From a virus, in IMG/VR virus record IMGVR_UViG_3300028416_000063, positions 1 to 28,013 of that record: a stretch of 28,013 nucleotides of DNA. One strand, given 5' to 3'. The notes below the pieces were generated by a model. That model was not told the DNA's origin, searched no databases, and worked only from the letters and a program-made list of their open reading frames with translations. The stretch's first letter is position 1; each line of letters starts with the position of its first letter. Both the position numbers and the translations under genes were made by a program. Positions 6,801 through 27,626 of this stretch are shown piece by piece.

Positions 6801-9800
6801 CCCATAGCGCCCGGTGTTGTTTCTGTAATAACTAAATCTGAATTTGAACTAGAAATTGTTATTGCGTTACCTGATGCTGATGCGTCTACAATACCCAACG
6901 CATTGATTTGATTAACAACCGATTGTGCAGTTGGATTACTTGTTGCACTATAATTACCAGCAGTCATGCCTAACACCGACAATGCTGTCCCAGCCAATGT
7001 CATTGTGTTGTTTGTACTTGCAATAGTTAACAATCCGCCCGCTGATACAGTAGATGTTATACCTGATATTGTAGATAGTTCTGTAGCAATATTTTTAAAC
7101 TTACTTTGTTTATATGATGAAGTAGTTGATAAACCCAAGTCAGTTAGTGCGGAACCTGATAGTTCAAGTACACCACTTGTTGTAGTTAATATTAACTCAT
7201 CATTCGCTGTTTTACTTGCAATAACATCAAGACTATTCGTATTAATGTTTAGTATAACTGCATCTATATCATCTGCCGCGGTTAGTGATAGCAATGTTCC
7301 ATTAACCTGTAGTGGTTTGTTTTGAGGTATAGTTGGCGCTGAAACAGTTCCAGTAACAGTTAAGTCTGCAAAAGACTTTGTTGTTCCATCAACGACAATA
7401 GTATCACCTGATGCAACCGCAGTTGTTTCTGTCACAGATGAAGTCTCGCTGATGCTAGAAATTGCACTATATCCAATAGTCAATGGTGTACCATCAATTT
7501 CAATTATGTCATCTTTGACTGACGCTAACGCCGATGTTGCTGTTGCTGTTGTTCCTCTAAATGTAACAACTGTATTCGAGTTTACAATAGTTCCATTGTT
7601 TCCATATACAACCATTTGCATTTTTTCATTTGCTGATATTACCGGATCAACTGTTGCACCGTCACCACCTATTGCAATTCCACTTGATACTGAACCAGAC
7701 CCTGGTGTGTAAGTATAGCTTATGCCATCAATTACTAATGCATCACCTGATGCAAATACTGGGTTACTTACTGAGCCTATTGCTTCAACTCCTTGTGAGG
7801 ATGAAGTTGGTACAAACAAACTGCTAGATGTTGAACTATCGATTTCTACAATAAGAGGTTCATAATTTAATTCAAATACTAGGTACTCATATATTGTAAT
7901 TCCGCCTACTTCTTTTGTGCCGTTGCTTACTAGATAATAATAATCTGCAATTTCTGGATCAATAGTTTCATTTTTAATTTTTATATATACGCTATCAACG
8001 ATATCAATTTCATTTACTAAACCCAAATATAACTGATTGTCTTCTGTTTCACCAACATAAGAAATTTCTGCTACTTCACTTAAGCGTCTTACGTCCCATT
8101 CACGTATTGGGTCGAACTGCAACCAAGCTGTATCGCCTTCATATAATGTATTGGCATTCAATGATGTTAAATCATATTCTGTTTTTACTGTGTAATTAAC
8201 GTCATTTCCATCCACATATCCTGTAGTTCTAATTGGAAATTCTTTTGTAATATCTCTGTACACAAAAGGCCTAGGAAGCGTATCAAATTCTACAGCATGT
8301 GGGTCACTTAAAATGTCAATAGTGTTGACAGACTTAGTTATATTATATCCGTTGTTTACTTTACCATAGTCATCTACTTTTATTGCCCAAACATCTTGGT
8401 GAGTAATATCTTTGAAGTTACTATTGTTGTTAATAATTCTGTTAATAGAAGACTCAGTTCCTTTATGTGCCAAGAAGCCTTTATAGAATTCTAACGCACT
8501 TTCTCTTTCAATGCCGTGATTGCTTAAGTATGCTCGTTTGTTATATCCTATTTGTGAACCTTTTAGCCCATTTATTGCTTCCAAACTTTGGTCAATAAGT
8601 GTATCTCTGTAATACTTTGACTCTTCTGCCATTGTTTCAAAGTTAGGTATTAGTTCATCGCCGTATGTTAAATAACCGTCAACTGTTAAAGTTCCGTCCC
8701 AATCTGACTGCCTATTACAATCAATTTGCATACGTAAGTTTCTATTGTGCATATGAGGATCATATATTATGTCACCATAACTATCTACTCTGTCTACTAC
8801 AAACGCATGTTCTACGTCTTGTATATCAATCTTCATCCCGTATACCGGAACATTACTTCTAAAGTTTATGGCCTTGCCATCTGTTGTGAATGATATTTCT
8901 GAGTTTGGAATTAATCTTCCAGATGCATCTACAACACGATAGAAGTTTTTATGTGTTTCTTTTCTAACTGATGCGACACCATATGGTGCAGTGAAACTAC
9001 CTGTTAATAATACAGGAGATAGTGTAATAAAGTCTCCTGGTTCATGTGTCTCTGAACTCCATTCTAAGAATTTTAATAAAAGCTGTTTAAAGTCAATGGT
9101 GTTTCCATCTTCATCTATATCCGTAAATCCCCAACCTATCAGTCCTAAATATTCCTGATAGCCTACCATCAAGTGTGCGACATCATCTATCGAAGTTAAA
9201 ATATCACCATAGTTGAATGTTTTTACAGCATCATTTTTAAACTTTTTCCAACCGTATGCTGTAACTACATTAGTAACTGGCCATTCTACTAGCTGTTTCC
9301 AATCCTCAATGTTATCATCTATCAATGTAGTAGATGTATGTGCATTTAGACAAACATAAGGCTGTCCTTGATATTTCATATAAGAATCTTGTCTATAATA
9401 GTTTCCTTGTTGCCAATCAGAAAGATGCATTCTGTCACCTTTAGTACTGAATGCCTTTTCGCCAGATGTTCTATCCCAATCCATTGCAAAGAATGTAGGA
9501 TTGATATCGTCATATCCTTGTATTCTATATCCAAATGATTGTGTCTTTGGTTGAGAGATAAGAGACCATGCTTGATAATCAAATTGAATTATAGGACTTG
9601 ATTGTTGTTCTTTTGCTGTCTGTGACTCTGCTATTCTTCTGTAATATTTGCCGTCAAACTCATTTAAGACAATATCACCTTTTAGATATGTCATAGTATT
9701 TGCTTTTGAATATACCGGATGAGGGCTATCTAATGAAACTTTTTCAATAACAATAGCACTGAAAAATTCACTTCTATTCGGCTCACCAGAATGTATTACT

Positions 9801-12661
9801 AAATCATAATTGTCTTTAGGAATTTCTGTATATTTACTGTTAGTCATAGATGTATTTTCTGCTAACAGCTTGAAGTTATTAACAAATCCACCTAGCTTTG
9901 AGCCAAGTTTAAATTCATAATCTTGTTTTTGTATTATGATATTTGCAGTATTATATCCTTCTCTACTATTGTAAATTGAAATACTCGTATCAATTTCATC
10001 TTTGTATGTGTGGAATATTTTGAAAGGTTTGGTCAGCATCATTAGTATGAATTCTATGAAAGGATATTCACTTGAATTCTTCCATGCCATTTCTACTGGA
10101 GATCCATCACCGAATTCCCAATCTTCTGATAATCTGCCTATATCATTGTTTAAGATTGATCCGCTAAAAAATAAATTATTAATATCAATATAGTTGCCGC
10201 CAGCATCGACTGGAATTGGAACATTTGTGATATTATTAATAGAAAATAAGTTAGACCAAAAACTTGGGTCAGCAAAGTTGGAACCGTATGTAGTTCTAAA
10301 CGTTGTAGGCTCTTGTGAAAGTCCTATTGTTTTCCACGGTTCTTCTATAGGATTATCTGTATTGTATGCATATTTAAATATACCACGCCAGTGTCCCGGA
10401 GAGTCTGCATTTATGTTTCTATAATTCCATGTAGTCCAATCACTAGCATCAAATCCTGTATTCTGTAAATCATCTATATTATTTCTAATTAGCCATTTCT
10501 TAAAGAAAGGATACATCGTGTAGTTCTTTTCAGAATTAGACCATTCGCTTGGTGCAGATTTGTACACCCCATAATTTACAGCATCTAAATTTGTTCTTGC
10601 AAGATTATCATCTAGGTTGTTCCATATAAGAGTTTCAAACATTAACATAATGTCATCTGTCTTGTCGCCCCAAAGTTTCATTCTTGAACCGTCATGTCCT
10701 ATAAGGAATTGTGTTACTCCGGAACTATATCCCATATCATCCATAATCATAGGTCTAAATGCTGGGTATAATTTCAAGTATGTAGCACTTGGTGGGACGA
10801 ATGTTTCTTTGATGCTATCATATCTTCTAAGATAGATAGTACTGTTGCCTGATACCGGAGACCTAAAATTTAAAATATCCTTACCGCCTTGACTGATAAT
10901 GATAGTATAATCTATGTTAAGTCTTTGCAATACACCATCTTTAAATACTGACAGAGTTTCAGGAAACGCTATAGCTCCTAATTCATCAGGTACAAACTGT
11001 TCAGTAGCATCTGCTATAATTTCTGTTATTTCTGCTTCTTGGTAATTAGAGTATAATTCACCATGATTAATCATGTCAAGTTTATCAAATATACTAATGC
11101 TATCTCTCTTTGATAATGCAATTAGATTTATTGCTTCTTCTAAAATCATTAAGTCTGATTTAGATTGGCTTCCTGCATCATTGAGAATATCTCTTACTGT
11201 CGTTACTAATTTGTTTTTGTATCCTTGATACGTTGTTGATAAAAACTCAACTGCTTTTATTGGGTCATAATCATCCCTTGTTATAGAAAAGAATGCATCT
11301 TTAACATCAACAGAGTTTGTAACTAACACACTTCCTTTATTATGAAAAGTGTTAAGATGTCCAACAGTATTTAGGTTTCTAAAGTTATTAAATCCATTTG
11401 CTTCACCGGTAAGACCAGGAGCAGTTTCTAAAATTCTTAAAAAATGTTCATACAATATTGAGTATGATAAATTTATATTATTGTAGCTTTTATTATCTAC
11501 GTTAAATTCTATTGAGTGATGCAATCGTTGAAAGCCGTTGTCGCCATCATTTACTACACCGCTTTTTGTACAGTAATCAATATACACAAACCCATCTGGT
11601 TCATTATCCAATGTCACTGTATTGTTTGTCAAATCAACTGTATAATTAGCAATCTGTTTCATACCCTCAACATAAACATCAACGGCATTAGTTGTCTTTG
11701 GTGTTTGTGATAAGGTTAATACTTTCCCAGATTCTCTTCCATACTCTTGTCTAAAGTTTCTATAATCGAATGTAGTATCAATATAGATACCAGTCATTAC
11801 TCCATCTAAATCATATTGTGCATTATCAGGTATATCAACAATAAATTGAAATTCACTAGCATAATCGCCTGCTTTTAATAATGGAACAAATCCTAATTCT
11901 TGGTCTGCGTTATATAATGCGGAATCACCAATCACATATGAAAAGATTTTTGAATCTACTATATTTCCAGCATTGCCATCTTTGTCATATATTTTAAATG
12001 TAGGAAACTCCCAATCTGTTGAAGCGACTTTATTTAAACTATCATTTCCAAGTTCTATTCTACTATCAAATTCTATGATAGGACGTTTAGCTTGTTCTAT
12101 CTTATCACTATTTGTACTTGTTATAAATGATTTTATATCATCGTAATGATACCATGAGTTTTCATTAGACCACCAGTTATCAACTGCAAAAAGATTTGCA
12201 TCGTCCCTGGCAATCGTAACATAATGTTTTTTATTACTACCAGTTATAGTTAGGTCGAATCCTGGCTTAACCCAGTAATACATTTCGTAGTTTATAAACT
12301 TGTCTAAGTCTACTGGTATATTAATTGTTTTCTTTGTAGTATCGAATAATCTTCTATGGTCATTTGTCAAAGCACCTTTATTAAATAAAGAATTCAACAT
12401 GTCTTCATAAAAGACCTTATCATTCTTACTAGAGTATACTGGTTCTAAACCGTAATTCTCACGACCATATGCATGTGGAGGAAACGAGAGATATATATCT
12501 TCTTCTCTGTTTATTCCTTTTTCTTTTCTACCAACATATGCTCTTGTCTTTTCGACTGAGCCTTTTGAGAATGCTCGTTCAAGTGTGCCTTCAAAGATAG
12601 TTTGTAATTCACTATTCTTTAAATGTCCCGGAAGAAAGTCATAAATTTTATTCTTAGCCAT
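3821..12661 (-). CDS. Giant baseplate/tail structural protein (2946 aa) with internal repeat block
   Basis: 2946 aa in one open frame. The ATG overlaps the last 8 bases of gp6 (ATGGCTAA); GAGGA lies 12 bases upstream. Seen in order: the N terminus MAKNKIYDFLPGHLKN; an EMYYWVKPG block (about 126-134); a helical segment with FYKGFLAHKGT (about 1390); a Ser/Thr/Gly-rich beta-repeat block (about 1640-2090); and a C-terminal region with DWIFKSSYIDI and EAKPYHTKIR (about 2670-2715). The YYWV, FYKGxxxxKGT and (E/A)xKPYHTK(I/V) blocks are familiar from very large structural proteins of marine T4-like and other large phages. The gene follows gp6, where T4 has gp7 (about 1030 aa, wedge initiator), so a gp7-like wedge or peripheral baseplate role is plausible but unproven. 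No enzyme motif found. Confidence 0.8.
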   Translation of the reverse strand: MAKNKIYDFLPGHLKNSELQTIFEGTLERAFSKGSVEKTRAYVGRKEKGINREEDIYLSFPPHAYGRENYGLEPVYSSKNDKVFYEDMLNSLFNKGALTNDHRRLFDTTKKTINIPVDLDKFINYEMYYWVKPGFDLTITGSNKKHYVTIARDDANLFAVDNWWSNENSWYHYDDIKSFITSTNSDKIEQAKRPIIEFDSRIELGNDSLNKVASTDWEFPTFKIYDKDGNAGNIVDSKIFSYVIGDSALYNADQELGFVPLLKAGDYASEFQFIVDIPDNAQYDLDGVMTGIYIDTTFDYRNFRQEYGRESGKVLTLSQTPKTTNAVDVYVEGMKQIANYTVDLTNNTVTLDNEPDGFVYIDYCTKSGVVNDGDNGFQRLHHSIEFNVDNKSYNNINLSYSILYEHFLRILETAPGLTGEANGFNNFRNLNTVGHLNTFHNKGSVLVTNSVDVKDAFFSITRDDYDPIKAVEFLSTTYQGYKNKLVTTVRDILNDAGSQSKSDLMILEEAINLIALSKRDSISIFDKLDMINHGELYSNYQEAEITEIIADATEQFVPDELGAIAFPETLSVFKDGVLQRLNIDYTIIISQGGKDILNFRSPVSGNSTIYLRRYDSIKETFVPPSATYLKLYPAFRPMIMDDMGYSSGVTQFLIGHDGSRMKLWGDKTDDIMLMFETLIWNNLDDNLARTNLDAVNYGVYKSAPSEWSNSEKNYTMYPFFKKWLIRNNIDDLQNTGFDASDWTTWNYRNINADSPGHWRGIFKYAYNTDNPIEEPWKTIGLSQEPTTFRTTYGSNFADPSFWSNLFSINNITNVPIPVDAGGNYIDINNLFFSGSILNNDIGRLSEDWEFGDGSPVEMAWKNSSEYPFIEFILMMLTKPFKIFHTYKDEIDTSISIYNSREGYNTANIIIQKQDYEFKLGSKLGGFVNNFKLLAENTSMTNSKYTEIPKDNYDLVIHSGEPNRSEFFSAIVIEKVSLDSPHPVYSKANTMTYLKGDIVLNEFDGKYYRRIAESQTAKEQQSSPIIQFDYQAWSLISQPKTQSFGYRIQGYDDINPTFFAMDWDRTSGEKAFSTKGDRMHLSDWQQGNYYRQDSYMKYQGQPYVCLNAHTSTTLIDDNIEDWKQLVEWPVTNVVTAYGWKKFKNDAVKTFNYGDILTSIDDVAHLMVGYQEYLGLIGWGFTDIDEDGNTIDFKQLLLKFLEWSSETHEPGDFITLSPVLLTGSFTAPYGVASVRKETHKNFYRVVDASGRLIPNSEISFTTDGKAINFRSNVPVYGMKIDIQDVEHAFVVDRVDSYGDIIYDPHMHNRNLRMQIDCNRQSDWDGTLTVDGYLTYGDELIPNFETMAEESKYYRDTLIDQSLEAINGLKGSQIGYNKRAYLSNHGIERESALEFYKGFLAHKGTESSINRIINNNSNFKDITHQDVWAIKVDDYGKVNNGYNITKSVNTIDILSDPHAVEFDTLPRPFVYRDITKEFPIRTTGYVDGNDVNYTVKTEYDLTSLNANTLYEGDTAWLQFDPIREWDVRRLSEVAEISYVGETEDNQLYLGLVNEIDIVDSVYIKIKNETIDPEIADYYYLVSNGTKEVGGITIYEYLVFELNYEPLIVEIDSSTSSSLFVPTSSSQGVEAIGSVSNPVFASGDALVIDGISYTYTPGSGSVSSGIAIGGDGATVDPVISANEKMQMVVYGNNGTIVNSNTVVTFRGTTATATSALASVKDDIIEIDGTPLTIGYSAISSISETSSVTETTAVASGDTIVVDGTTKSFADLTVTGTVSAPTIPQNKPLQVNGTLLSLTAADDIDAVILNINTNSLDVIASKTANDELILTTTSGVLELSGSALTDLGLSTTSSYKQSKFKNIATELSTISGITSTVSAGGLLTIASTNNTMTLAGTALSVLGMTAGNYSATSNPTAQSVVNQINALGIVDASASGNAITISSSNSDLVITETTPGAMGRLGFATTTVTVDALTNIIEDIQNQALQGVTGVTLSKSASGRQLQIVSSQSSIVLSNITGNPLNDLGILVGTYNNSTTVSSSASEFKDYINSQSSDIIVNITSDGRMVFTTSAVSLTFSGTTDAMLSKLGLYRDYTSVTSNANFKAMRWKSMRFTPNYLFETFDEFYTDLGLNAEALIWADDYISEGWAVLNRNSTGSLLIRNRQANTLEVDYMKRVIIKDGNNFFNYQLYDPLNLKFPGSATRDIDYVTWEDPAGYDTTTDNELWLDENLGKIWWDTTLARYYRYNDYGDANKLIVESFASKYWGKLVAGSEINIKQWSKSEQLPEGITKFTTKVYFDTTKNKSITEYYYWSEVGNSPVAGKTLSIAEIKMLLESGDINNKFIPISNNKILISNNAYIFENESIDVSIEYRVTSDISAKHTDWKFVKEGGKYDTSVVDGELQRQMIDSIANVHFEQYDQKKVEQSMLGDPNHTIITFPILSGLYGGGRDDATINDTVVTLNSKIIDASDIGFDISTTNPNLAKLLIAKSVTVLPDDVVRVYRMIPTENNWFTNLQIARENFASILNKELSNKHLTGSFPFYKDFIEPDQLALSLGDWYLADEYKEIKRYGYLSKTRNFDMLKLYKEGVTSFKLELPTHDEYYAEHDGALRLVHSSKNALRLSYNDLVFPENDQASAKYYENALGVQIHELMGLLITYPKRNLLNNLLFGMINYMYTEKTHPDWIFKSSYIDITMYHRDLRQYAIYQRDSEEDILEYLTEAKPYHTKIRTKTRIYGKDELIKSDVDIEEKMEISLDFGNHSRYIESDTIDGGDEQIIDADNYVDIADGTWEQGRLLRTRQEYTAEAGGFDTGLVLPTILDSSTVMVKQYTDATKTTHDKTYMFVYDMFGRGWRIGVDAESTATSFDGTTVVVDTPASFKTASKKNKKLIAFENETTGVIEFMTYNKKASQNLTIDERGLYTGLHTAPGSTSKVYALDTPLEMVLHGKLKTEWI
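6395..7270 (-). repeat. Five tandem flagellin-IN-like protein repeats inside the giant gene
   Basis: Five units of about 55-63 residues lie between roughly residues 1798 and 2090. Each has a helix (for example VVNQINALG), a V-x-A-S-type strand, an L-x-I-x-S strand, an L-x-L/S-G segment and a closing L-G-(L/M/F/I) turn. The closing turns lie near nucleotides 7136, 6970, 6792, 6603 and 6414, so spacing is 166-189 bases. The pattern resembles the flagellin hook IN motif and similar repeats in adhesins and tail proteins. DNA identity between units is low, so this is an old protein-level repeat. Confidence 0.6.
7372..7765 (-). repeat. Three D-x-I-x-I-D-G strand motifs preceding the IN-like repeats
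   Basis: Three related motifs occur in the giant protein: ASGDALVIDGISY (near 7700-7765), VKDDIIEIDGTPL (near 7465-7520) and ASGDTIVVDGTTK (near 7372-7425). Each reads as a beta-hairpin (G/D-D-x-I/L-x-I/V-D-G). In other tail and adhesin proteins such a hairpin begins an IN-type repeat unit. Here they are separated from the helix-bearing units, as if half-units had multiplied alone. Confidence 0.5.
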
Positions 12662-17004: not shown

Positions 17005-17361
17005 TTATTCTCTCTTTAAATCTATTGTTAGTGTTACAGGCTCATTATCTGGTAATATAGCGACACTAATAGATGCTGTGACTGTATGCTCACCTTCAGT
17101 TAAGTTAATGGACTCTAAATTCACTCTAGGTTCATCGCTGATGATGTTCGTTAAATCTTCTTCAATAAGTGTTCTTATGTTAGAGGTCAACGGCTCAAAG
17201 ATAAGGTCATGTATAATCGACCCATAAGTAGGCATCATAATTCTTTCGCCTTTGCGAGTCATGATATTATTCAATAAATCTTCTACTACTAACTCTTTTC
17301 CAGTTAGAGTATGATTGATTGCACTTTTGTTTTTAGTACTGAAACCTATAAATCTTGCCAT
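17005..17361 (-). CDS. gp25: Baseplate wedge protein gp25-like
   Basis: 118 aa from the ATG at 17361 (MARFIGFST). The in-frame ATG at 17400 is rejected because it lies upstream of the late promoter at 17388-17397. Residues 35-58 ([19 protein letters not shown], then IFEPL) and EPRV at 77-80 match the gp25/phage W family core, whose T4 version has TRKGSRPFDPEFG and EPRI. gp25 holds the wedge core bundle and touches the first sheath ring, so it starts sheath polymerisation. The length is close to T4 gp25 (132 aa). Five bases separate it from gp6, whose ribosome binding site lies in its last codons, so the two are likely coupled. It is the first gene after the plus-strand clpP island and has its own late promoter. 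Confidence 0.92.
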
Positions 17362-17387
17362 AATGTTCTCTCTATACTTATTAAGAG

Positions 17388-17397
17388 TATTTATCAA
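17388..17397 (-). promoter_or_regulatory. T4-type late promoter TTGATAAATA for gp25-gp6-giant
   Basis: The minus strand reads TTGATAAATA 27 bases upstream of the gp25 ATG, the same ten bases and similar distance as at 3793-3802. The core GATAAATA fits the NATAAATA late promoter form of marine T4-like phages. It sits back to back with the clpP promoter (17422-17450), so the 126-base gap between gp25 and clpP is a divergent control region. Confidence 0.7.
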
Positions 17398-17421
17398 CAT
17401 ATAAACTTCGTACTTTTTGTA

Positions 17422-17450
17422 TTGACTTTTGTTGTAATTTCTGTTATTAT
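17422..17450 (+). promoter_or_regulatory. Sigma70-type promoter for clpP
   Basis: TTGACT (17422-17427) and TATTAT (17445-17450) with a 17-base spacer; 37 bases from the -10 to the clpP ATG. The element is host-type and unlike the late promoter on the other strand, so clpP is probably transcribed early or middle. It differs from the two promoter cassettes downstream because it lacks the TAGCGAATCGT spacer. Confidence 0.65.
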
Positions 17451-17487
17451 TAATTTAATCAAATACAAATGGAGAATAAATAAAAGT

Positions 17488-18090
17488 ATGCCAAACTTAG
17501 TACCAATGGTCGTAGACCAAACTGCAAACGGAGAACGTAGCTTTGATATATTCTCACGTTTGTTAAAAGAAAGAGTTATATTCTTAACAGGTGAAGTCAA
17601 TGACTATCAGTCTGACTTACTTTGTGCCCAATTTCTGTTCCTAGAAGCAGAAAACCCAACAAAAGATATACATTTTTATATCAACTCACCAGGCGGAGCA
17701 GTAACAGCCGGAATGGCAATCTATGATACTATGCAATTCATTCAACCAGATGTTTCAACAATGGTTTTAGGTCAAGCATGTAGCATGGGTTCATTATTGG
17801 CAACTGCGGGAGCTCCCGGCAAACGATTTATGTTACCTCATGCAAGACACATGATACATCAACCAAGTGGCGGCGCCGGTGGACAGGCAACTGACATGGA
17901 AATTCAAGTCAAAGAAATCTTAAAAGTTAAAGAAAGTTTGACTAGTATCTATGTAAAACATAACTCTAAAGGCAAAACTTATGAAGATTTCTATAGTGAT
18001 ATGGAACGTGATAAGTTCATGGGCCCAGAAGAGGCACTAGAATACGGGTTAATTGATAAAATTATCAATGAAAGACCTGAAAATCAGTAA
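17488..18090 (+). CDS. clpP: ATP-dependent Clp protease proteolytic subunit ClpP
   Basis: 200 aa starting [20 protein letters not shown], the usual ClpP length. I chose the ATG at 17488 because alignment to ClpP begins there and GGAG lies at 17471-17474 (13 bases, rather long spacing). The longer in-frame start at 17311 lies inside gp25 and upstream of the promoter. The serine-protease triad is complete: Ser99 in GQACSMGS, His124 in MIHQPSGG, Asp175 in MERDKF. The oxyanion-side SPGG (67-70) is also intact. Family knowledge: ClpP forms a 14-subunit chamber fed by ClpX or ClpA; neither unfoldase is visible here, so host partners are likely. The sequence looks bacterial, closest by eye to alphaproteobacterial ClpP. 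It is not the T4 prohead protease (gp21) family. It stands alone between a promoter and a terminator, opposite to the structural genes. Confidence 0.95.
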
Positions 18091-18634: not shown

Positions 18635-18982
18635 ATGAAATACAAGTTATATCAAATTCATCTTACAGATGCAGAAATTGATTTAATCAATGAAGAAGGA
18701 CATGATGCTGTTCATAAGCAATCATTGAAATTAGATATGAATTTTTCAAAGAATGACACAGGTATGGTTGCCCGGGATGCATTCAATCGTGGATACTACA
18801 CGCATGTTAGTAACATCACTGCTGATAGTTTAGAGGGCGTGTTTCATGTAGGGAACATGGGCCCAGAAGAAGACATTGAGCGTTTGTCTCGTATGTACAG
18901 TGTTAGTGTTGGTGACATTGTGGAAGATGAAGATGGCAAGCAATCAGTAGTTGCTAATTTTGGTTTTAAAGAGGTAGCCTAA
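18635..18982 (+). CDS. Small phage protein with YodL-like features, function unknown
   Basis: 115 aa starting MKYKLYQIHLTDAEIDLIN; AGAGAGG precedes the ATG. The layout resembles the YodL-like domain found on plasmids and in phages: a KYKLYQI opening strand, a YYTHVSNI middle, LEGVFHVGN, then SVSVGDIV and a final FGFKEV (YodL-like proteins typically show YxxYQL, SLSVSDV and FGF). The block VGNMGPEEDIERLSRMYSVS (about 72-91) is also known to me from hypothetical phage proteins. No biochemical role is established to my knowledge. The gene ends tail to tail with the lysozyme-like gene; their stop codons overlap by 4 bases (18979-18982), with no terminator between them. It is driven by promoter cassette copy 2. 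Confidence 0.75.
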   Translation: MKYKLYQIHLTDAEIDLINEEGHDAVHKQSLKLDMNFSKNDTGMVARDAFNRGYYTHVSNITADSLEGVFHVGNMGPEEDIERLSRMYSVSVGDIVEDEDGKQSVVANFGFKEVA

Positions 18983-19617
18983 CTAAAGCCAGGAACAAAA
19001 CTCCACATCTTAGAAGTTTTAATTTTCATAGCGGCTAGTTTTTCATTAATCTGGCCGTTATTCTTTTTAATATTAGTCTGAATTTCATCTGTAATATTAT
19101 ACCATTTTTCATTATTAATCAATGCAATGATAGGATGTCCTTCAATTTTATCAACGCCTTCATTGAAGAAATAATATAACAATGCATCAAATTGTGGTTG
19201 AGATAATTCTTTCTTAACAAACTTTTCTAAAACATTTCCTATATTACGTAATTGCTTTTCTAATATAAAGTTTGCCATTGGTTTTGTAATTTTGCCTGTA
19301 CCTATGTCTATTCTCTGTGAGGCAACGGTTATATATCCATAACGCTTTTCTGTATTTGTTATTTTATAACCAAACCCAACAGTATCATCTGTTATCTCTA
19401 ACATAGGTTTGTTTGTATCAATGATTGCATTCTTACTCATTTCACTGAATATTAAATCTGTTATTGGAAAGCATGTCAATCTAACGTGTGATAATATATA
19501 AGTAGGCTCACCGGTTTCTTTGTAGCCCGTACCTAAATAAGTGCCATTAGGAGTTACAACATTCAACGGAAGTTGAATATAATTTAGCAATGACCCTTTT
19601 CTTTTATCAAATAACAT
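18979..19617 (-). CDS. GH24-like phage lysozyme, probably virion- or hub-associated
   Basis: 212 aa starting MLFDKRKGSLLNYIQL. GAGG lies 10 bases before the ATG, which overlaps the gp5 stop (TAATG). The second half fits the GH24 (phage lysozyme) helical lobe: GKITKPMANFILEKQL (about 108-123), then LSQPQFDALLYYFFNEG (138-154) and a final MWSF. DDTVGFGYKI (77-86) matches the T-I-G-x-G strand of T4 lysozyme. The catalytic Glu is not certain. E59 in SEM lies 20 residues before T79, against 15 in T4 lysozyme, and the usual Asp is also shifted. Activity may therefore be altered or lost. About 50 extra N-terminal residues may dock the protein to the hub. There is no signal peptide or SAR segment, and its place after gp5 supports a tail-associated role rather than a holin-dependent endolysin. 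Confidence 0.65.
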   Translation of the reverse strand: MLFDKRKGSLLNYIQLPLNVVTPNGTYLGTGYKETGEPTYILSHVRLTCFPITDLIFSEMSKNAIIDTNKPMLEITDDTVGFGYKITNTEKRYGYITVASQRIDIGTGKITKPMANFILEKQLRNIGNVLEKFVKKELSQPQFDALLYYFFNEGVDKIEGHPIIALINNEKWYNITDEIQTNIKKNNGQINEKLAAMKIKTSKMWSFVPGFS

Positions 19618-21473
19618 TACGCTAACCTCACTGCGGTTGTTCCTGTAACAGAAGAACTATCTGCTACACTGTATGAACGAGTTAATCGGTATGCGCCTCT
19701 TTCTGCACTTGCGGCTGAGAAATGCATTGGATCCCATGGAGCACTCCAGTTTCCGCCCCAACCTAAACCATGCCTTGCGGCTATCTCACCGATGTTAAGT
19801 GGGAAGTCACAGCCTTGGTCTGCGCCTCTAGTCACACCTGGATTCCAACCAGCTGGTCTTGTTCGTGCATATCCGTTTGGTGCATATGCATTAATATCTA
19901 TTGCGGCTCCCATTGCATGGAAGCTAGGTCTTGAACCACCTCTTTGATTTCTATTACAGTAACCGCCCAATGTTTTAATAACGTATCCGGTTGCTTCTAA
20001 ATCATCAATTAATCCTTGGAAGTTAGATTGGAATATTGCCGCAACCTGACAGCCTACTCCATTACTTGCACGTATAGATGCCAAGCCTTCTCCGGGAGGA
20101 AGCCCAGGAACATCTTCGTTTGATGTTTCATTTGAATCTTGATTTGCGGCATCCATTTGTCCAGATGCACTATTTGGATCACTTGCTATTTCATTACCAG
20201 CGTTTTGTGTTTCGTTGTTATTCTCGCCAGGCGTAGACCCATCTGCGGCTTTTTGTACTGTTTCTGTACCACGCAAGAAAGGTTCATGTGTTGGGAATTT
20301 AGGTATAATACTTTTTTCAATTACTGTGTTTTCTAAATTCTGAATATCTGGTTGTGTTTCTAATGGTATATCATAAGCGATAGAAGCCATAGGACCATTA
20401 AGATGTAGCTTGCCATTAACTGTAGAAACATACATACTTGTTTCAACTTTCTGATGTAGTGACCCACCACTTTCATAAAACTGCGAACCAATAGTCTTAG
20501 TATGCATTTGATTATCTACGTTAATATTATAATTGTTTATAGCATGTAGATTAATATTTTCACCAGCTTCAAGGTTTATATTTTTATCTGCACGTAGATT
20601 GAAATCTTTTTCTGTACGCATCGACAATGATCCTTCAGCATAAACCATCACTTCACCATCTGCTCCAATTTCAACCCAACCGGAACCTGAACTATTGATT
20701 GCATATACAAAATCATTTGTGCCATCAACAATAACTTGTGCGCCTGAACCTGTCGAAATTCTAATTTGATTAGGGTGTATTGTGCCATCGTCTCCGACAG
20801 ACCCATCATCCATTGTAATTCCATTACCACCTGGTGTAGTCCAGCCATAAACTTTTGAGTGTTGCGTTGTTTCATAGTTTGCATCACGTAATGGACTTGC
20901 AGTAGATTGTCCTCGTTTATTATCAGAAAATATACCTTGACTTGCTGAGTTTACATTTCTGTTAGAATTTCCTTGGTCTGCTTCATCTGTATTTTGTAAT
21001 TCTGCTAATGTGTTAGGTGTAGACTTTGCAACTTTAACATCTTTGGCAATTCCTTCACCCATTCCACTGCCGTCAGGATTGGCAGTACCTGCCGCACCAC
21101 CTGGTACAGTGCCGGGAACTTCTTGTGCAACTGCGAACCAATAACCTTCGTTTAGATTTCCGTTATCTGCAAAGAAAACTAATATAGTAACTCCGCCATC
21201 TGGTGGGACAGAGAACATACCATATGAACCTTGAGAGTTTGAGCCTCCGAAAGAACTTGCATACATAAAATACATTGGCTCATCTGGATCTCCGCCCAAT
21301 TTAGGAACATAAGCCGCTATACGTCCTCGTCCTTCTGGATCTGGTTTTCCTCCAACAGTTATGGCTTTATATATGCCACTTTTAATATTCTGTAAAATAG
21401 GATTTTCTTGCGACTTTCGATTGCTCAAAAGAGATTTTGCAAGACTGTTTCCTATAGTAGATTGATTAGCCAT
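19617..21473 (-). CDS. gp5: Baseplate hub gp5-like with C-terminal M15 peptidase
   Basis: 618 aa. Its ATG overlaps the SGNH gene by 8 bases (ATGGCTAA); AGGA lies upstream. Residues about 34-120 (GKPDPEGRGRIAAYVPKLGG, VPPDGGVTILVFF, EGYWFAVAQE) form the OB-fold domain of gp5/VgrG-type hub spikes. Residues about 280-360 (LSMRTEKDFNLRADKNINLE, AGENINLHA, MHTKTIG) look like the triple beta-helix. A Glu/Asn/Ser-rich linker (about 400-465) follows, then a zinc peptidase of the M15 type (about 470-590). Likely zinc ligands are H519 and D526 in SFHAMGAAIDIN and H584 in WDPMHF. M15 enzymes cut the peptide part of peptidoglycan. T4 gp5 instead carries a lysozyme domain between OB fold and helix; here that position has only a linker. 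The enzyme therefore follows the spike instead of preceding it. Confidence 0.88.
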   Translation of the reverse strand: MANQSTIGNSLAKSLLSNRKSQENPILQNIKSGIYKAITVGGKPDPEGRGRIAAYVPKLGGDPDEPMYFMYASSFGGSNSQGSYGMFSVPPDGGVTILVFFADNGNLNEGYWFAVAQEVPGTVPGGAAGTANPDGSGMGEGIAKDVKVAKSTPNTLAELQNTDEADQGNSNRNVNSASQGIFSDNKRGQSTASPLRDANYETTQHSKVYGWTTPGGNGITMDDGSVGDDGTIHPNQIRISTGSGAQVIVDGTNDFVYAINSSGSGWVEIGADGEVMVYAEGSLSMRTEKDFNLRADKNINLEAGENINLHAINNYNINVDNQMHTKTIGSQFYESGGSLHQKVETSMYVSTVNGKLHLNGPMASIAYDIPLETQPDIQNLENTVIEKSIIPKFPTHEPFLRGTETVQKAADGSTPGENNNETQNAGNEIASDPNSASGQMDAANQDSNETSNEDVPGLPPGEGLASIRASNGVGCQVAAIFQSNFQGLIDDLEATGYVIKTLGGYCNRNQRGGSRPSFHAMGAAIDINAYAPNGYARTRPAGWNPGVTRGADQGCDFPLNIGEIAARHGLGWGGNWSAPWDPMHFSAASAERGAYRLTRSYSVADSSSVTGTTAVRLA

Positions 21474-22452
21474 TGTTTATTTTCCTATACGCTTGATGTA
21501 TGTTTTTAGCTAAATCTTTATTCGCAATTTCATCAAAATGCCCACAACTTAGCCTACTATAATCAAGTGGTGTATTGATAATTTCTACTTTTCTGTCTAA
21601 AGTATTCATATCATTTATGTATTTATTTGCCAATTCCATTGCATCTGGTAAAATATTATACTGTTCCCAAAATCCTATATTAACAAATATAATATTCCAT
21701 TTGTTTGCAAGAGTTAACCAATGCAATCGTCTTAATATTATCTCAACATTTTTAATAAAAGAATTTGCATTAGTATTAATATGTAGCATATGCGCCGCCC
21801 AAGATTCGTCTAATGCTTTTTGGGCTTTTGCACTACGTTTGTTAAAATTTGTATGAAACTCTTGCGATGCTTCTGGTAGTTCCCATAGAATTTCTGGATC
21901 AACTATCGGCATTTTTCTTATTCCTAAATTTGGATTAATATTTGCATTTGTATCCCAAGCTCTTAGTAGCTCATTGTATATTGGCTTAGTTGGTTTGTCT
22001 ATACCAGGTGACAAAATGTTCATATACCATGCATGTCTCATCATCGAGGACATACTATACACAATAGTTTTTGTCTGTTTAGACTTTGGTTCATTTGTCC
22101 ATTGTTCTAATCTTCGCATTATTGTTTCGTTTCCAGAACCAGGTTTTGCTAAATTTATCCAAAACTTATTTTTATCTTTTTTATTCAATAACGCACTCAA
22201 GCACCATTTCTCTGGTAACCCATCGCCAAACATAAAACTATCACCGAATATAGGAATTATTTCTTCTTCGAAATCTTCAAAATTTGTTAAGTCTGTTCTT
22301 GTAGGCCAAGCATTAGGCCATACTTCTTTTTGTTCACCAAATTTAGGGTCAATGGTATACGGAGTATAATATGTTTTATCCATATCATGTCTTCCATCAT
22401 CAAACAACTTACTGAAAGTTGAATACTCATTATTAAATTCGTTAGTCTTCAT
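21466..22452 (-). CDS. SGNH/GDSL hydrolase-like protein in the hub operon
   Basis: 328 aa starting MKTNEFNNEYSTFSKLF; AGGAAA lies upstream, overlapping the stop of the hub gene. Residues 65-80 (IIPIFGDSFMFGDGLP) carry block I with candidate nucleophile S72. NLAKPGSGNET (100-110) supplies G105 and N108 for blocks II and III, and CGHFDEIANKDLA (303-315) resembles block V with H305. The Asp normally three residues before that His is replaced by S302, so the enzyme would use a Ser-His dyad or another acid. SGNH enzymes remove acyl groups from lipids or polysaccharides. Similar genes occur in marine T4-like phages. Its place inside the hub operon suggests a virion or tail part that acts on surface glycans or lipids, or an assembly factor. 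Substrate is unknown. Confidence 0.7.
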   Translation of the reverse strand: MKTNEFNNEYSTFSKLFDDGRHDMDKTYYTPYTIDPKFGEQKEVWPNAWPTRTDLTNFEDFEEEIIPIFGDSFMFGDGLPEKWCLSALLNKKDKNKFWINLAKPGSGNETIMRRLEQWTNEPKSKQTKTIVYSMSSMMRHAWYMNILSPGIDKPTKPIYNELLRAWDTNANINPNLGIRKMPIVDPEILWELPEASQEFHTNFNKRSAKAQKALDESWAAHMLHINTNANSFIKNVEIILRRLHWLTLANKWNIIFVNIGFWEQYNILPDAMELANKYINDMNTLDRKVEIINTPLDYSRLSCGHFDEIANKDLAKNIHQAYRKINNG

Positions 22453-22460
22453 TCTATTTC

Positions 22461-25400
22461 CTACGGCGTTGGTGGGTTAACTATCACAAAATCAGCGGCA
22501 TTAAATCGAACGCCTATTTGCAATGCACCAGTTTCTGGGTTTCTACTATCTTCATTTGCAACTCCCGATGCAGTTGTTACCGCAATATCTGGGTACTCAT
22601 TGGCTATTGTATTTTTTAAATTCATTGGGTTTAGTCCAGGTTTATAATATTCAAATGATCCAACAGGCGCAGTTGAATCGACTAATCCAAAATGTGTTAC
22701 TGGGTCTGTTATCGTTTGTATTGTTCCTGAAGAGTCTCTATATGTTATAGGACCAATTGCACTGTAATCTAATACTTGCGAGGTGTAAGTTTCTCCATCA
22801 AAAGTTTCTGTTAATGTTGTTCTTGGTGCCGCTTCAACTTTGGTTAATATATCATTGTACACATCTTTTGCATTAGTATATTGTGCAACTTGTGAAGCAG
22901 ACACTTCTCCGTCTGATATTGCATCAACTATATTACTGTTAGAAATTGATGTGCCAGTCCTATCACCAAGTGTTTCAACTACTATTATAGGTGCAGTAGC
23001 ATTTGGTTCTTTGATTGGTACTGCAACATTTTCATATTTAATTTCGCCATTTTCTTCAACTGGTATTATACCAGTAGTTACACCATCGGTTGAACTTAAA
23101 TCACTTCTTATATCATTTACTTCGGTTTGTAATTTAGATGCAAGTTCTTCGTCACTTTCTCTTCCTGCTTCTGTCCAATACCAACTCTCTAATCTTTCTT
23201 CTGTGTCTTTTAGTTCTGCTTCTTTTTCATTTAGCAACTCTAATTTCTTTTGTTTCTTCAATGCATCTATTGCCTCTCCTCTAGTTCCTGAGGTTGCGTT
23301 TGTTGTAATTGTATCAATAGTGCTTTCTATTGCTTTGACTTCCGAATATTCTTGGTCTGTTAAATCATGTAAACTTCTGCCATCGATAATATTAATGGCT
23401 TTTTGGTTCAATGCTGAAACTTTGTCTGCTTCGTTTACTGTAAGAGTATTAAGCCCAACATCAACTGAATAATTTCTTGTGCCAAGTCCTGTTCGGTAAC
23501 TTTCTACGTTTACCTGATGTCCGTGATTTTCTATTGGAACAGTACCGTCAAGAATTGACGCGGCACCATTGATACTTGCCGCCTTTTCTGCATTGGTTGT
23601 GTTAGGGTCATTCACATCTATCGTTTCTAAATCAGACATTATTGATTGTGGATCTTTTATAATATCATCCTCGCCTTTAAGGTATCGTTCTGATTCTATT
23701 CGATTTGCTTCGTTTACCTTAGTTAGTGCTTCTTGGTCTAATCCTGTTACAGTTGTTCCCACGGTTGCATTTTCAGTTGCCTCAAGTGCGTGGTCTATCT
23801 CTGCCATAGTTTGTGCTGTTACAGTATAACCTTCGTCTATGGCTTCATTGTAAGCATTTCGAGTTGCATCCGATACTGACTCATTTCCTGTTTGATAATC
23901 GTCTGCTAATCTTTTTGCAATCTTTTGTGCAGATTGTTGTACCGCAATACAAGATTGTTCATGACCTAATGCACATAGTCCCTCGGCCTGTTGTCTAGCA
24001 AGTGCTAATTGTTTTGCAACTGATTCATTTGGAACTGCGTAATCGTTTTGGTTTGAAGGTTCAAGAAAGTTATTTGTTGCAGTTTGTAATGCCATGACCG
24101 CATGCGGTCCCGCACCATCTATATCAACTACATACACATCGCCCTCTGGTGTTATTCCAGTACCTGCGCCCTGTGGTGCAACTATATCATCTGCAAATTC
24201 TTTTGCTTCCGCGTCTTCTTTTGCATTTGGATTCACAACAGCATCGCCTCCATCATTGAGTCCTAATCTATCTTGTACTGGTAATTGAAAATAACCGTCT
24301 GACATTAATTCTGGATTAGGAGCTCCTAGTACTGCATCTACTGTTTGAAATTCTTCCGCCGCTGGTATCTTTACCATTTGTAATGTTTGTGTAAATAATC
24401 CACCACTGAATGAACTAATAACTGAGTTAACAGAATATACACTAGTCATTAGTCGTGTCTTTTTTATTCCATCATAATTTTCTGCATCTAGTCCTACTCT
24501 CTCTGGGTTATTTAAATAAACGCCTTCTGCTTTATCTGTAACTAAGATAAGATAATTTACTCCATTAATATTCGTAGAATGCATTTTATATTCATCAAGT
24601 GCATTTGCATTGCCGTATTTTGCTTTTATCATAGAAGGAGAATACACGCTATCTACCCAATATGGGTCTCCTTTGATAGTCATTTGTGCATTCATCATAC
24701 TTAAATTATTATTTCTTCCTTCATAATATTTTGCTTGTGCAAGTTCAATATCTTCTTGGTCAGCCGATTTAATAACATTCAAGTTAGTAGGATTTTCTAA
24801 TAATGATTTAGTAATACGTGAAAAGTTAACTGGGTTTTCTACAAGTGCTTTTAATAAACTATCAAATTGGTCAAGACTTAATTTACTAATCATTTCTTTA
24901 TCTAAATTTTCAGTAAGTATAAGTTCCTGTCCTTCACTGCCAGGGAATAATCCCAAGTCATTCCAATTGTCTCCGATGGTTGAAGTGCTTTCAATAATTT
25001 TAGTTGAGTATAGTTGTCCCAATGCCTCACGCATTAAGTCATTTTGTGCAATTTCATTTTCTTTTTCTTCTCTTAGTAAATCATTTTGACTTTGGTTTGA
25101 ATCTTGTATTTGATTAAATAGCTTGTTACGATTTTCACGAACTTCTCCCTTCATAATATCTTGAAGAATTTCATACTCTTGTGAATCTTCATCAAACATA
25201 CTCATCATTTGATTTGCATCAGCATTTTGAATTTGTTCATATATTTTTTGTGCTTCGGCGGCCTCTCCTGGTCCACCAACACGACTCATAAGTCTGTCTC
25301 TGAATTCGTTTCGTACTTCTGCACTAAGGTCTGCAAATTGTCCTTCAAGTGTTCGAGCGTTTGCTCTATGCATTCTAAGTGTTTCACCCAATGTTCCAGA

Positions 25401-27326
25401 CTCTTCTTCCAGTTCTGTTAGCTTCTGTTGGGCTCTTTCATCGATTTGTGTACGCCAATCTCCAACTGCTTCTAAGAAACCATTTGCCATGTAGGTATCG
25501 CTAGGTTTTACGTATGCTTTTTGAAGTTGATTATCCAGTGATATAGTTAAATCTAATATGTGTTCATTCCTACCAGTATATTGATAGTAATATCTTTTAT
25601 TACAATGACCTTCTAAGAATATACTTCTTAAAACTTTTGCAGTATCTTCTGTTAGCTTTGCGTTGTGTGATTGATTTTGTACTATTAAACTTTTTTGCAC
25701 AGTTAAAAAATAATTTACTTCATAAGTTTGTTTACTTGTCAATACATTATAGCCACCTAACTTAGGTGTTGCATGTGGTAGAACTCTAAACAAGTTTGAT
25801 AGTTGAGGAGAATCATCAGTTAGTGCTTCTCTAATTAAACTTGAGTTTAAACAAATACTTTCTATTGCATTATATATAGATGAACCAGGCGTTATAACAC
25901 CAGTTTGCTGTCCTATTTTAACACTAGCTGTTTCAGATGTTTCATTATTTCCAGATGAAGTATTGGGAACATCCGGAGAAGTCATTTGGCCTTGACCAAA
26001 CATTTGTTTAAAATCGTCAGACATTTCGAAATTATATTCATTAATAAAATCTGAGTTTGACGTTACTGCTTTTTCTTCTATCTTTGCATTTAGTTTTTTA
26101 AAGAAGTTGTCTAGTGTTTCTTCTAAGGTAGCCGCAACATCAAATTCAAAGTTATAATCCATTTGAGACAGTTCAGTATCAGCTACTACTTTATCATTTA
26201 CGATTGTACCATCTAATATTAAGTTTGTACCTTTACTTTCTGTTTGAGATTGTAGTTCATTATATTTTGTAATAACAAATGGGAATATTTTTGTAGCGGG
26301 TAAGTTTCTAACTTGGTTGCCACTTTCATCATAACCCTTAAAGCGTACTTTCATAAAGAATATTGCATTCTGTAAGTCAGGATATCCGCACAATAAAATA
26401 CTGTTTTGTAACATATCAGGCAAAGAAGTTCCGCCAACTTGGCTGATAGTAAATTGTAAATTAGTGGCAGTACCTGCCATTTTTGATGCTGAACCAGTTC
26501 CGTTACCGACACTAGTGATAGTTAAATCTGTAATGTTTAATTCTGTGGTGACGCCCGTTCTTGCTATCGTAATCACATTCATGTTGTTAGTAGGCCAAGC
26601 ATCGTTTACCACATCGTCTATAAGTTGTGGAGTCTGTTCATAGGCAAGAAACTTATTTGCTTCTTGTTGGTTAACAACAAACAAATCTAAATTGTAAGTA
26701 TAATGTTCAAACGCATCTAATTCATTTTCCCAAAATAAATTATTCGATTCCATATTTTTTAATAAACTGGACAAACTTCCTGAACCAGATATCGCATTAC
26801 TTTTTAGGCTTCTCGTATCGTCAATTCCTTGAGTTGGGGGTTCACTAAGCTGTTCGCCATTTGAAAATAAATCACGCTGAGTATCATCATCAATAACAGG
26901 AGAACTATCAGGTATATTACCATATGCCATGTCCAACCCAGTACCGATACTGTCTGCGAAATAGGCAGATGCTTCATTTCCGCCTTCTTTTTGAATCATT
27001 GCACTTACCATTTTTTCTGCTAGTTCTGGATTAGCAGATAAATCAATAGGAGTATTTTTATCTATTCCCATTTTATTTGCTACAAAATCTACATATCCAG
27101 ATGTATCATTTTCATTAGGAGGAGCCCAACGTTGAATCATTCCCTCTACATCAGTTAGTCCGTGCCTATCTTGGTAAGTTTCTAGCGTTTTGCCTAAAGC
27201 CCTTACTCCATGCTCAGGCGTAGCAAATGAAACAAATGAACCATCGCCACCTGTTGCACCTTGCCATGCTGTTGCATTGCTTCTGATGTTACCTGGGTTA
27301 TTATTTCTTACGCTTCTGACTGCCAT
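22461..27326 (-). CDS. Baseplate hub protein with N-terminal lysozyme-like domain (1621 aa)
   Basis: The N terminus (about 1-130) is RNNNPGNIR (7-15), WQG, FATPEHGVRALGKTL and RWAPPNENDTSGYVDFV. This is a phage virion domain usually annotated as structural or lysozyme/transglycosylase-like. Residues about 195-640 are hub-like: KIGQQTGVITPGSSIYNAIE, YEVNYFL and KRYYYQYTGRNEHILDLTIS (near 575-595), a layout I know from gp27/VgrG-type hub proteins of marine T4-like phages. A long Glu/Gln/Arg-rich stretch (about 627-772) should be coiled coil. FSGGLFTQTLQMVKIP (near 972-985) is another conserved hub block. The last 570 residues are Ala/Glu/Asp-rich helical sequence ending in a small beta-rich domain with no relative I recognise. 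It lies 6 bases after gp53. T4 gp27 is about 390 aa, so this is a multi-domain hub; the gp27 assignment is inference. Confidence 0.72.
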   Translation of the reverse strand: MAVRSVRNNNPGNIRSNATAWQGATGGDGSFVSFATPEHGVRALGKTLETYQDRHGLTDVEGMIQRWAPPNENDTSGYVDFVANKMGIDKNTPIDLSANPELAEKMVSAMIQKEGGNEASAYFADSIGTGLDMAYGNIPDSSPVIDDDTQRDLFSNGEQLSEPPTQGIDDTRSLKSNAISGSGSLSSLLKNMESNNLFWENELDAFEHYTYNLDLFVVNQQEANKFLAYEQTPQLIDDVVNDAWPTNNMNVITIARTGVTTELNITDLTITSVGNGTGSASKMAGTATNLQFTISQVGGTSLPDMLQNSILLCGYPDLQNAIFFMKVRFKGYDESGNQVRNLPATKIFPFVITKYNELQSQTESKGTNLILDGTIVNDKVVADTELSQMDYNFEFDVAATLEETLDNFFKKLNAKIEEKAVTSNSDFINEYNFEMSDDFKQMFGQGQMTSPDVPNTSSGNNETSETASVKIGQQTGVITPGSSIYNAIESICLNSSLIREALTDDSPQLSNLFRVLPHATPKLGGYNVLTSKQTYEVNYFLTVQKSLIVQNQSHNAKLTEDTAKVLRSIFLEGHCNKRYYYQYTGRNEHILDLTISLDNQLQKAYVKPSDTYMANGFLEAVGDWRTQIDERAQQKLTELEEESGTLGETLRMHRANARTLEGQFADLSAEVRNEFRDRLMSRVGGPGEAAEAQKIYEQIQNADANQMMSMFDEDSQEYEILQDIMKGEVRENRNKLFNQIQDSNQSQNDLLREEKENEIAQNDLMREALGQLYSTKIIESTSTIGDNWNDLGLFPGSEGQELILTENLDKEMISKLSLDQFDSLLKALVENPVNFSRITKSLLENPTNLNVIKSADQEDIELAQAKYYEGRNNNLSMMNAQMTIKGDPYWVDSVYSPSMIKAKYGNANALDEYKMHSTNINGVNYLILVTDKAEGVYLNNPERVGLDAENYDGIKKTRLMTSVYSVNSVISSFSGGLFTQTLQMVKIPAAEEFQTVDAVLGAPNPELMSDGYFQLPVQDRLGLNDGGDAVVNPNAKEDAEAKEFADDIVAPQGAGTGITPEGDVYVVDIDGAGPHAVMALQTATNNFLEPSNQNDYAVPNESVAKQLALARQQAEGLCALGHEQSCIAVQQSAQKIAKRLADDYQTGNESVSDATRNAYNEAIDEGYTVTAQTMAEIDHALEATENATVGTTVTGLDQEALTKVNEANRIESERYLKGEDDIIKDPQSIMSDLETIDVNDPNTTNAEKAASINGAASILDGTVPIENHGHQVNVESYRTGLGTRNYSVDVGLNTLTVNEADKVSALNQKAINIIDGRSLHDLTDQEYSEVKAIESTIDTITTNATSGTRGEAIDALKKQKKLELLNEKEAELKDTEERLESWYWTEAGRESDEELASKLQTEVNDIRSDLSSTDGVTTGIIPVEENGEIKYENVAVPIKEPNATAPIIVVETLGDRTGTSISNSNIVDAISDGEVSASQVAQYTNAKDVYNDILTKVEAAPRTTLTETFDGETYTSQVLDYSAIGPITYRDSSGTIQTITDPVTHFGLVDSTAPVGSFEYYKPGLNPMNLKNTIANEYPDIAVTTASGVANEDSRNPETGALQIGVRFNAADFVIVNPPTP

Positions 27327-27332
27327 TGTACA

Positions 27333-27626
27333 CTACTTCATTTCGTCTAATTGATTTTTGCTAGGTATTTTAATTTTAGTACCCGCTGTGAAATCGTTTA
27401 TCGGGTCCTGAATAGTATCAGGATTTCTTTTAGCAAAAACCCACCAGTATTTGGAAGTACCATATAGGTCATAACTACACAAATCAGGTCTAAGATTGTA
27501 GTTCTGTGGTATAGTATACGTTTCGTCTAACGCACTTTTTTGTAAGTAGACAGGATTTTGTATGTCTAGTACTTTATTTTTTATTACCGCAGTTTTCTTC
27601 CACGGTGAAGTTGGATCATATGCCAT
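27333..27626 (-). CDS. gp53: Baseplate wedge protein gp53-like (LysM-like)
   Basis: 97 aa starting MAYDPTSPWKKTAVIKNK. AAGGGG lies upstream, and the ATG overlaps the previous stop (TAATG). Residues 46-90 (RPDLCSYDLYGTSKYWWVFA, KRNPDTIQDPINDF, TAGTKIKIPS) match the LysM-like core of gp53: a Y-x-x-YG-x-x-x-YWW turn, then DP and a G-x-x-I-x-IP strand. gp53 clamps neighbouring wedges around the hub to complete the baseplate. T4 gp53 is about 196 aa, so this is a short form with the core only. Placement between a tube-cap-type gene and the hub gene fits the function. Confidence 0.82.
   Translation of the reverse strand: MAYDPTSPWKKTAVIKNKVLDIQNPVYLQKSALDETYTIPQNYNLRPDLCSYDLYGTSKYWWVFAKRNPDTIQDPINDFTAGTKIKIPSKNQLDEMK

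Follow-up and report, generated by a model that had tools for sequence, protein, structure and literature searches.

Multi-Enzyme Tail Tips and the Hub Cluster of a Marine Virus

Baseplates with several wall-cutting enzymes are already known in Rak2-like jumbo phages. In CBB, a member of this group described in 2017, gp5 carries a lysozyme domain and a possible M23 peptidase domain, and a separate lysozyme gene adjoins it (PMC5259590). CBB virions contained CBB_240 (gp5) and CBB_241, a structural protein adjacent in numbering, whereas the free-standing lysozyme CBB_239 was unconfirmed in them (PMC5259590). In this study, we analyzed the baseplate hub cluster of IMG/VR record IMGVR_UViG_3300028416_000063, an uncultured marine virus record of 28 kb (positions 1 to 28,013, hereafter the window), which has relatives on contigs of up to 342 kb, some of them jumbo-size. 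By computation, we determined the domains of this cluster, their active-site motifs and lost residues, their swapping among relatives, and their conservation. We consider it likely that this T4-like myovirus has a tail tip where a glycosidase and a peptidase each have their own site, accompanied by a conserved dead lysozyme.

A first-pass annotation of the same DNA had described four open reading frames (ORFs) in the cluster and proposed that they form an unusually complete envelope-opening set. All four ORFs were found exactly where and as described. They belong to one tightly packed operon on the minus strand, in the order gp53-like, hub (1621 amino acids), SGNH-like (328), gp5 (618), and GH24-like (212), and are separated by overlaps or gaps of a few bases; the start of the 212-residue protein overlaps the gp5 stop by one base. 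The neighboring gp53, gp25, and gp6-like genes were recognized by PHROGs and Pfam, and the locus is therefore a T4-like baseplate cluster. Its features are as follows:

22461..27326, minus strand: baseplate hub ORF, 1621 amino acids, directly downstream of the gp53-like ORF
26877..27326, minus strand: hub residues 1–150, probable RNNNPGNI (PHA02564/Enc34-type) peptidoglycan glycosidase module; catalytic candidates W67, Y78, and E114
25512..26753, minus strand: hub residues 192–605, conserved hub core (homology to GAP32_235 and PA5oct EST35_0134)
21466..22452, minus strand: SGNH-like ORF, 328 amino acids, accessory; Ser72 and His305 conserved, Asp position occupied by Ser302
19617..21473, minus strand: gp5-like central spike ORF with OB (oligonucleotide/oligosaccharide-binding) fold, spike stem, and probable C-terminal peptidase
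19716..19940, minus strand: gp5 residues 512–586, M15_4 peptidase domain (H519-x6-D526, D581-x2-H584)
18979..19617, minus strand: 212-residue lysozyme-fold (GH24-like) protein without conserved catalytic Glu/Asp/Thr
27333..27626, minus strand: gp53-like baseplate wedge protein (context; PHROG)
17005..17400, minus strand: gp25 baseplate wedge protein (context; Pfam and PHROG)

The baseplate loci of Rak2-like phages (GAP32, CBB, and XbC2) share this layout: gp48-like, gp53-like, hub, gp5 with extra enzymes, a separate lysozyme-fold gene, gp25, and gp6-like, with a hub core homologous to that of the window. However, the enzymes are distributed differently. In Rak2-like phages, a GH24 domain and a weakly matched M23 domain are both part of gp5, whereas the window gp5 carries M15; their separate lysozyme keeps Glu, Asp, and Thr, whereas that of the window is dead; and their hub has no Pfam enzyme domain, whereas the window has a predicted glycosidase on the hub N-terminus. 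The window also resembles T4 in the OB fold and spike stem of gp5, in a GH24 fold within the operon, and, presumably, in a muralytic role at the tail tip. In contrast to T4, which has one active lysozyme inside gp5, the window has an M15 domain at the gp5 end and its GH24 fold on a separate, catalytically degenerate protein.

A Predicted Glycosidase at the N-Terminus of the Hub Protein

Residues 1–150 of the hub protein matched the endolysin family PHROG 873 (E-value = 2.5e-47). Comparison of this RNNNPGNI domain with PDB sequences identified 9vvp chain L (E-value = 1.6e-27) and the Enc34 endolysin 7q47 (E-value = 7.5e-11, residues 4–118). Of these, Enc34 alone has demonstrated muralytic activity: its domain lyses permeabilised Gram-negative cells, and Glu131, Trp79, and Tyr95 have been implicated in this activity (PMC8943055). 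In the 7q47 alignment, these residues correspond to E114, W67, and Y78 of the window, given a one-residue numbering offset between the 7q47 chain and the Enc34 paper that was inferred from the motif. All three are invariant in an alignment of eight relatives. In a wider set, 23 of 26 sequences retain Glu and Tyr and 21 retain Trp, which is replaced by Tyr in two others; the three exceptions (loci L076, L079, and L081) have lost the whole active-site set, and their modules are visibly decayed. With its catalytic equivalents intact, the window hub N-terminus is probably a peptidoglycan glycosidase of the Enc34/PHA02564 type, as judged from sequence.

The same domain is found in quite different proteins. 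In Enc34, which shares the catalytic Glu/Trp/Tyr set, it is an endolysin; in K1F-type podoviruses, it opens the N-terminus of the internal virion protein gp16 (46% identity); in the window, it is fused to a myovirus baseplate hub. A literature text search for RNNNPGNI matched no paper.

The hub core is homologous to PA5oct EST35_0134 (98%, E-value = 3e-14) and GAP32_235, and the PA5oct record marks both hub and gp5 with electrospray ionization tandem mass spectrometry (ESI-MS/MS). Virions of PA5oct, like those of CBB, thus contain homologues of the hub and gp5.

Two further observations concern the hub. First, the N-terminal module of L076 (1901–2308), L079, and L081 has an RNNNPGNI motif without Gly-Asn and an active site without Trp, Tyr, and Glu, and represents a second dead lysozyme-type module within the clade. 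Second, the hub C-terminal part (about residues 1000–1621, compared in the window, L011, L014, and L024) comes in two or more dissimilar sequence types in near relatives (L014/L015-like and L011/L019-like), and such switching suggests recombination.

An M15 Peptidase Domain on the gp5 Spike

The gp5 family was assigned by PHROG 13211 (E-value = 8.7e-24) and by tblastn matches to annotated tail-lysozyme/hub proteins (E-values to 7e-29). The Pfam match of its OB fold is below the cut-off, and direct comparison of the family with T4 gp5 by hhalign gave no significant match. At the C-terminus, Pfam detected Peptidase_M15_4 (PF13539) with an E-value of 3.7e-14 and 53.5 bits against a cut-off of 25. 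The residues of the M15 metal motif HxxxxxxD...DxxH (H519, D526, D581, and H584) are invariant in the gp5 alignment and in the wider set, and by these sequence features the domain is probably a working peptidase.

According to a review, virions with endopeptidase activity are almost confined to phages that infect Gram-positive hosts (PMC6116005). A peptidase on the spike of a T4-like phage is thus out of the ordinary, although a possible M23 domain was already known in CBB-type phages. In L022 (6089–7918; a contig shared with L056, L128, and L145), gp5 is divided into two ORFs (338 and 268 amino acids) compared with its twins, reflecting either a frameshift or a sequencing error.

A Conserved Lysozyme Fold without GH24 Catalytic Residues

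The 212-residue ORF matched Pfam PF00959 with 39.8 bits against a cut-off of 22.3, covering only profile positions 25–114. Its AlphaFold model, built from a 38-sequence alignment, has a pLDDT (predicted local distance difference test) of 87 and a pTM (predicted template modeling score) of 0.85. Foldseek analysis of this model revealed GH24 lysozymes as the best solved matches (9kbq, E-value = 5.6e-6, TM score 0.76 by target length), and P22 lysozyme and the SpmX muramidase domain were also found. The best viral fold match was a 763-residue "endolysin" of an uncultured phage (E-value = 3e-11, TM score 0.76 by query length), which spans all 212 residues. On the basis of these models, it seems that other phages have the full module, first 55 residues included, in fused form.

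To examine the active site, we used E11/D20/T26 of T4 lysozyme as reference, that is, a Glu at the end of helix A and the Asp and Thr of the beta hairpin. No conserved Glu was found between residues 55 and 89 in 48 distinct relatives. At residue 67, where helix A ends, the relatives have N, D, L, E, or others; at residue 79, which corresponds to the Thr, they have I, K, V, or T; and where the next His would align, they have Tyr and then Q, K, E, or N. Controls aligned together (the hub-fused GH24 modules of L152–L154, GAP32_233/XbC2_236, the GAP32 gp5 C-terminus, and T4 gp5) keep Glu and Asp with a TIGYGH-type motif, in which Ser replaces Thr in the hub modules. As no canonical catalytic residue is conserved, we did not classify the 212-residue protein as an active GH24 enzyme, and catalysis by the GH24 mechanism is very improbable for it. 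Thus, a Pfam lysozyme match in a tail operon does not prove activity and should be treated with caution.

On the other hand, the gene is well maintained. It is present in every locus with a complete region downstream of gp5, and its ratio of nonsynonymous to synonymous substitution rates (dN/dS, 0.09–0.23) indicates purifying selection about as strong as that on gp5 (0.11–0.17); the SGNH-like gene has values of 0.27–0.54. Since this lysozyme is always kept without its cutting residues, it looks like a building part. We infer that it most likely has a structural or wall-docking function in the hub and descends from an old tail lysozyme, which makes it a clear candidate for a former lysozyme that has become a virion or assembly protein without enzymatic function. 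Orthology of this family with the T4 gp5 lysozyme or GAP32_233 was considered and dropped, as direct hhalign comparison gave no support; only a shared fold and gene position are claimed.

Exchange of Enzyme Domains among Relatives

We compared the contents of two sites, the hub N-terminus and the gp5 C-terminus, across 41 loci on a tree of the hub and gp5 cores. At least five changes were counted in the hub slot, four in the gp5 slot, and three in the presence of the SGNH-like gene; these counts are approximate and do not distinguish gain from loss, the tree having been built by a quick method and containing several long branches. The hub slot contains RNNNPGNI, a true GH24 module (Pfam E-value = 4.7e-22 in L152), an SLT/gp144-like module with an RESGG motif (Pfam E-value = 0.0022; PHROG 4067, 6e-6; phiKZ gp144, 0.02), a decayed RNNNPGNI module, or nothing. 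The gp5 slot contains M15_4, VanY (Pfam E-value = 5.8e-14), a putative third type with H-x6-D...HVD that is called a peptidase by motif only, or nothing.

The clearest case is L153, which has a GH24 module, compared with L157, L158, and L191, in which a closely similar hub core directly follows gp53. No module was found anywhere upstream of the latter cores, nor any separate copy, and a split gene was rejected as the cause of the missing modules in these three loci. In the L066/L178 group, neither slot has a recognizable enzyme, and the dead lysozyme alone remains; it is kept in L066, L178, and L180 with no enzyme on hub or gp5.

These loci provide a natural series of related phages that differ in the wall-cutting domain of the tail tip, including near-twins with and without a lysozyme. 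Such a series makes it possible to test whether entry requires a tail enzyme and whether the type of enzyme tracks the chemistry of the host wall.

Further observations concern the gp5 C-terminus. In L161 (9743–10291) and about 20 other loci, it contains HDNGFAADV...GYMNDVGVHVDIA, which has no match in Pfam or PDB and from its sequence looks like an undescribed M15-like metallopeptidase. The swapped C-terminus with GYMxGVGxHVDI, a putative peptidase by its H-x6-D...HxD motif, matched nothing in Pfam or PDB, and hhalign comparison with the M15 and VanY domains also gave nothing. In Atu_ph07 (L202, 8863–11460), the C-terminal end of gp5 is a trypsin-like peptidase domain (Pfam Trypsin_2, 6e-17), a further enzyme type in this slot.

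The SGNH-Like Gene

The SGNH-like ORF matched no family in Pfam, PHROG, or phage records, and had no significant match among PDB sequences. Its AlphaFold model has a pLDDT of 79. Foldseek comparison of the model identified TesA, Est2A, PatB, and DltD (best E-value 1.6e-4, ranging to 1e-3), with TM scores of about 0.7 by target length for TesA and about 0.6–0.7 for TesA-like SGNH enzymes, which supports an SGNH-like fold with moderate confidence. In block I, the GDSF motif with Ser72 is invariant, as is His305. The Asp of the block V DxxH motif is Ser302 in the window and D, E, or S across relatives. The block III GxND motif is absent, and an SSMxR-type sequence with invariant S135, S136, and R139 is found instead.

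The gene is present in the window clade and its sisters but is missing from the interval separating hub and gp5 in L024 and L026 and in every more distant group, with the L152–L193 and L066–L180 groups lacking it throughout. Identity among relatives is 33–54% where that of gp5 is 72–87%. This ORF is a fast-changing accessory gene whose catalytic state is uncertain.

Proposed Function and Alternative Explanations

A reasonable model is that sheath contraction would push the spike and hub through the outer membrane, where the lysozyme-like glycosidase of the hub N-terminus would cut peptidoglycan glycan strands and the M15-type peptidase of the gp5 C-terminus would cut stem or cross-link peptides. 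The two domains could then open a local hole for the tube. In relatives, the enzyme at each site is exchanged or lost while the holder protein stays, and the 212-residue protein is the invariant member of the cluster, which kept the lysozyme fold and lost the GH24 catalytic residues. Each of these parts is presumably located in the virion. A broader hypothesis, which we hold tentatively and lean slightly against, is that the tail tip is a two-slot cartridge holder, with the hub N-terminus taking any of three unlike glycosidase types and the gp5 C-terminus any of several peptidase types, and that the dead lysozyme, descended from an ancestral tail enzyme, is the constant part on which all of them depend, either structurally or for docking to the wall.

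Several points weigh against a two-enzyme tail tip with a dead lysozyme. Comparison of the hub with T4 gp27 by hhalign gave no significant match; thus, the term "hub" is based on where the gene lies and on its homology to structural proteins of jumbo phages. Of the 48 sequences, 6 do have Glu at residue 67, the likeliest site of the lost Glu, and the active-site comparison was made by secondary structure and sequence without superposition of coordinates. Moreover, the free-standing lysozyme beside gp5 in Rak2-like phages is unconfirmed in virions, and the 212-residue protein may therefore not be a virion part.

This last point is also what recommends the alternative that survives best, namely that the 212-residue protein acts outside the virion, as a chaperone of assembly or as a regulator of the tail-tip enzymes on the cell side: the Rak2-like gene at the same place differs from its two neighbors in lacking confirmation as a structural protein, and the one-base overlap with gp5 would fit such a role. 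However, the protein is kept in L066, L178, and L180, where no hub or gp5 enzyme is present, and so is not simply their controller, and its sequence conservation equals that of structural gp5. We regard this alternative as unlikely.

It is still less probable that the glycosidase, peptidase, GH24 lysozyme, and SGNH esterase are all virion enzymes that jointly open glycan, peptide, and acyl bonds, as the first-pass annotation had proposed. All four ORFs share one operon, the GH24-like ORF exceeds the Pfam cut-off, and the SGNH-like model resembles known enzyme folds and has the invariant Ser72 and His305. Of the three peptidoglycan-active modules proposed, two were supported by homology and intact motifs, the RNNNPGNI lysozyme-like domain fused to the hub (PHROG 873, 9vvp, and 7q47) and the M15 peptidase on gp5 (PF13539, above its cut-off); glycan plus peptide cleavage is the supported part of the proposal. 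The third kept its GH24 fold by Pfam, AlphaFold, and Foldseek, but its catalytic residues are unconserved in the 48 relatives, which goes part of the way to the non-enzymatic assignment that the annotation itself had named as counting against it. As for the SGNH hydrolase-like protein, the fold and two residues stand, but the acyl-bond step is doubtful with Asp replaced by Ser in the window, GxND absent, no sign of a place in the virion, and the gene missing in many relatives, several of them close. In the form proposed, a four-activity set is thus unsupported: one of its members no longer has an active site, a second is doubtful and not always present, and several lysozyme and peptidase domains in the same operon were already known from related jumbo phages. 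With the baseplate of CBB (PMC5259590) as a precedent, the claim of unusual completeness is only partly supported.

Least probable is that the 212-residue protein is still active through a catalytic acid that has moved elsewhere, for instance the invariant Glu90: E90, E131, D144, D177, and E178 are invariant or nearly so, purifying selection is strong, and in the L066/L178 group this protein is the only lysozyme-like domain seen near the hub, but none of the three canonical positions is conserved, and the coexistence of intact-motif GH24 modules on the L152–L154 hubs would make its activity redundant there.

Other Features of the Window

A scan of genome contigs identified one relative, L204, which has 74% in the 212-residue protein and whose contig was binned in a Flavobacteriaceae metagenome-assembled genome; this is a weak host hint, too weak for naming a host. 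The wedge region encodes a 2946-residue protein (3821–12661, minus strand) with a weak, below-cut-off match to the carbohydrate-binding family CBM_5_12 at residues 1083–1110. In addition, a ClpP-like protease gene (17311–18090, plus strand) lies on the opposite strand within the baseplate operon and overlaps gp25. The first 59 residues of this ORF probably reflect a wrong start, and the intact ORFs of relatives align only from residue 60.

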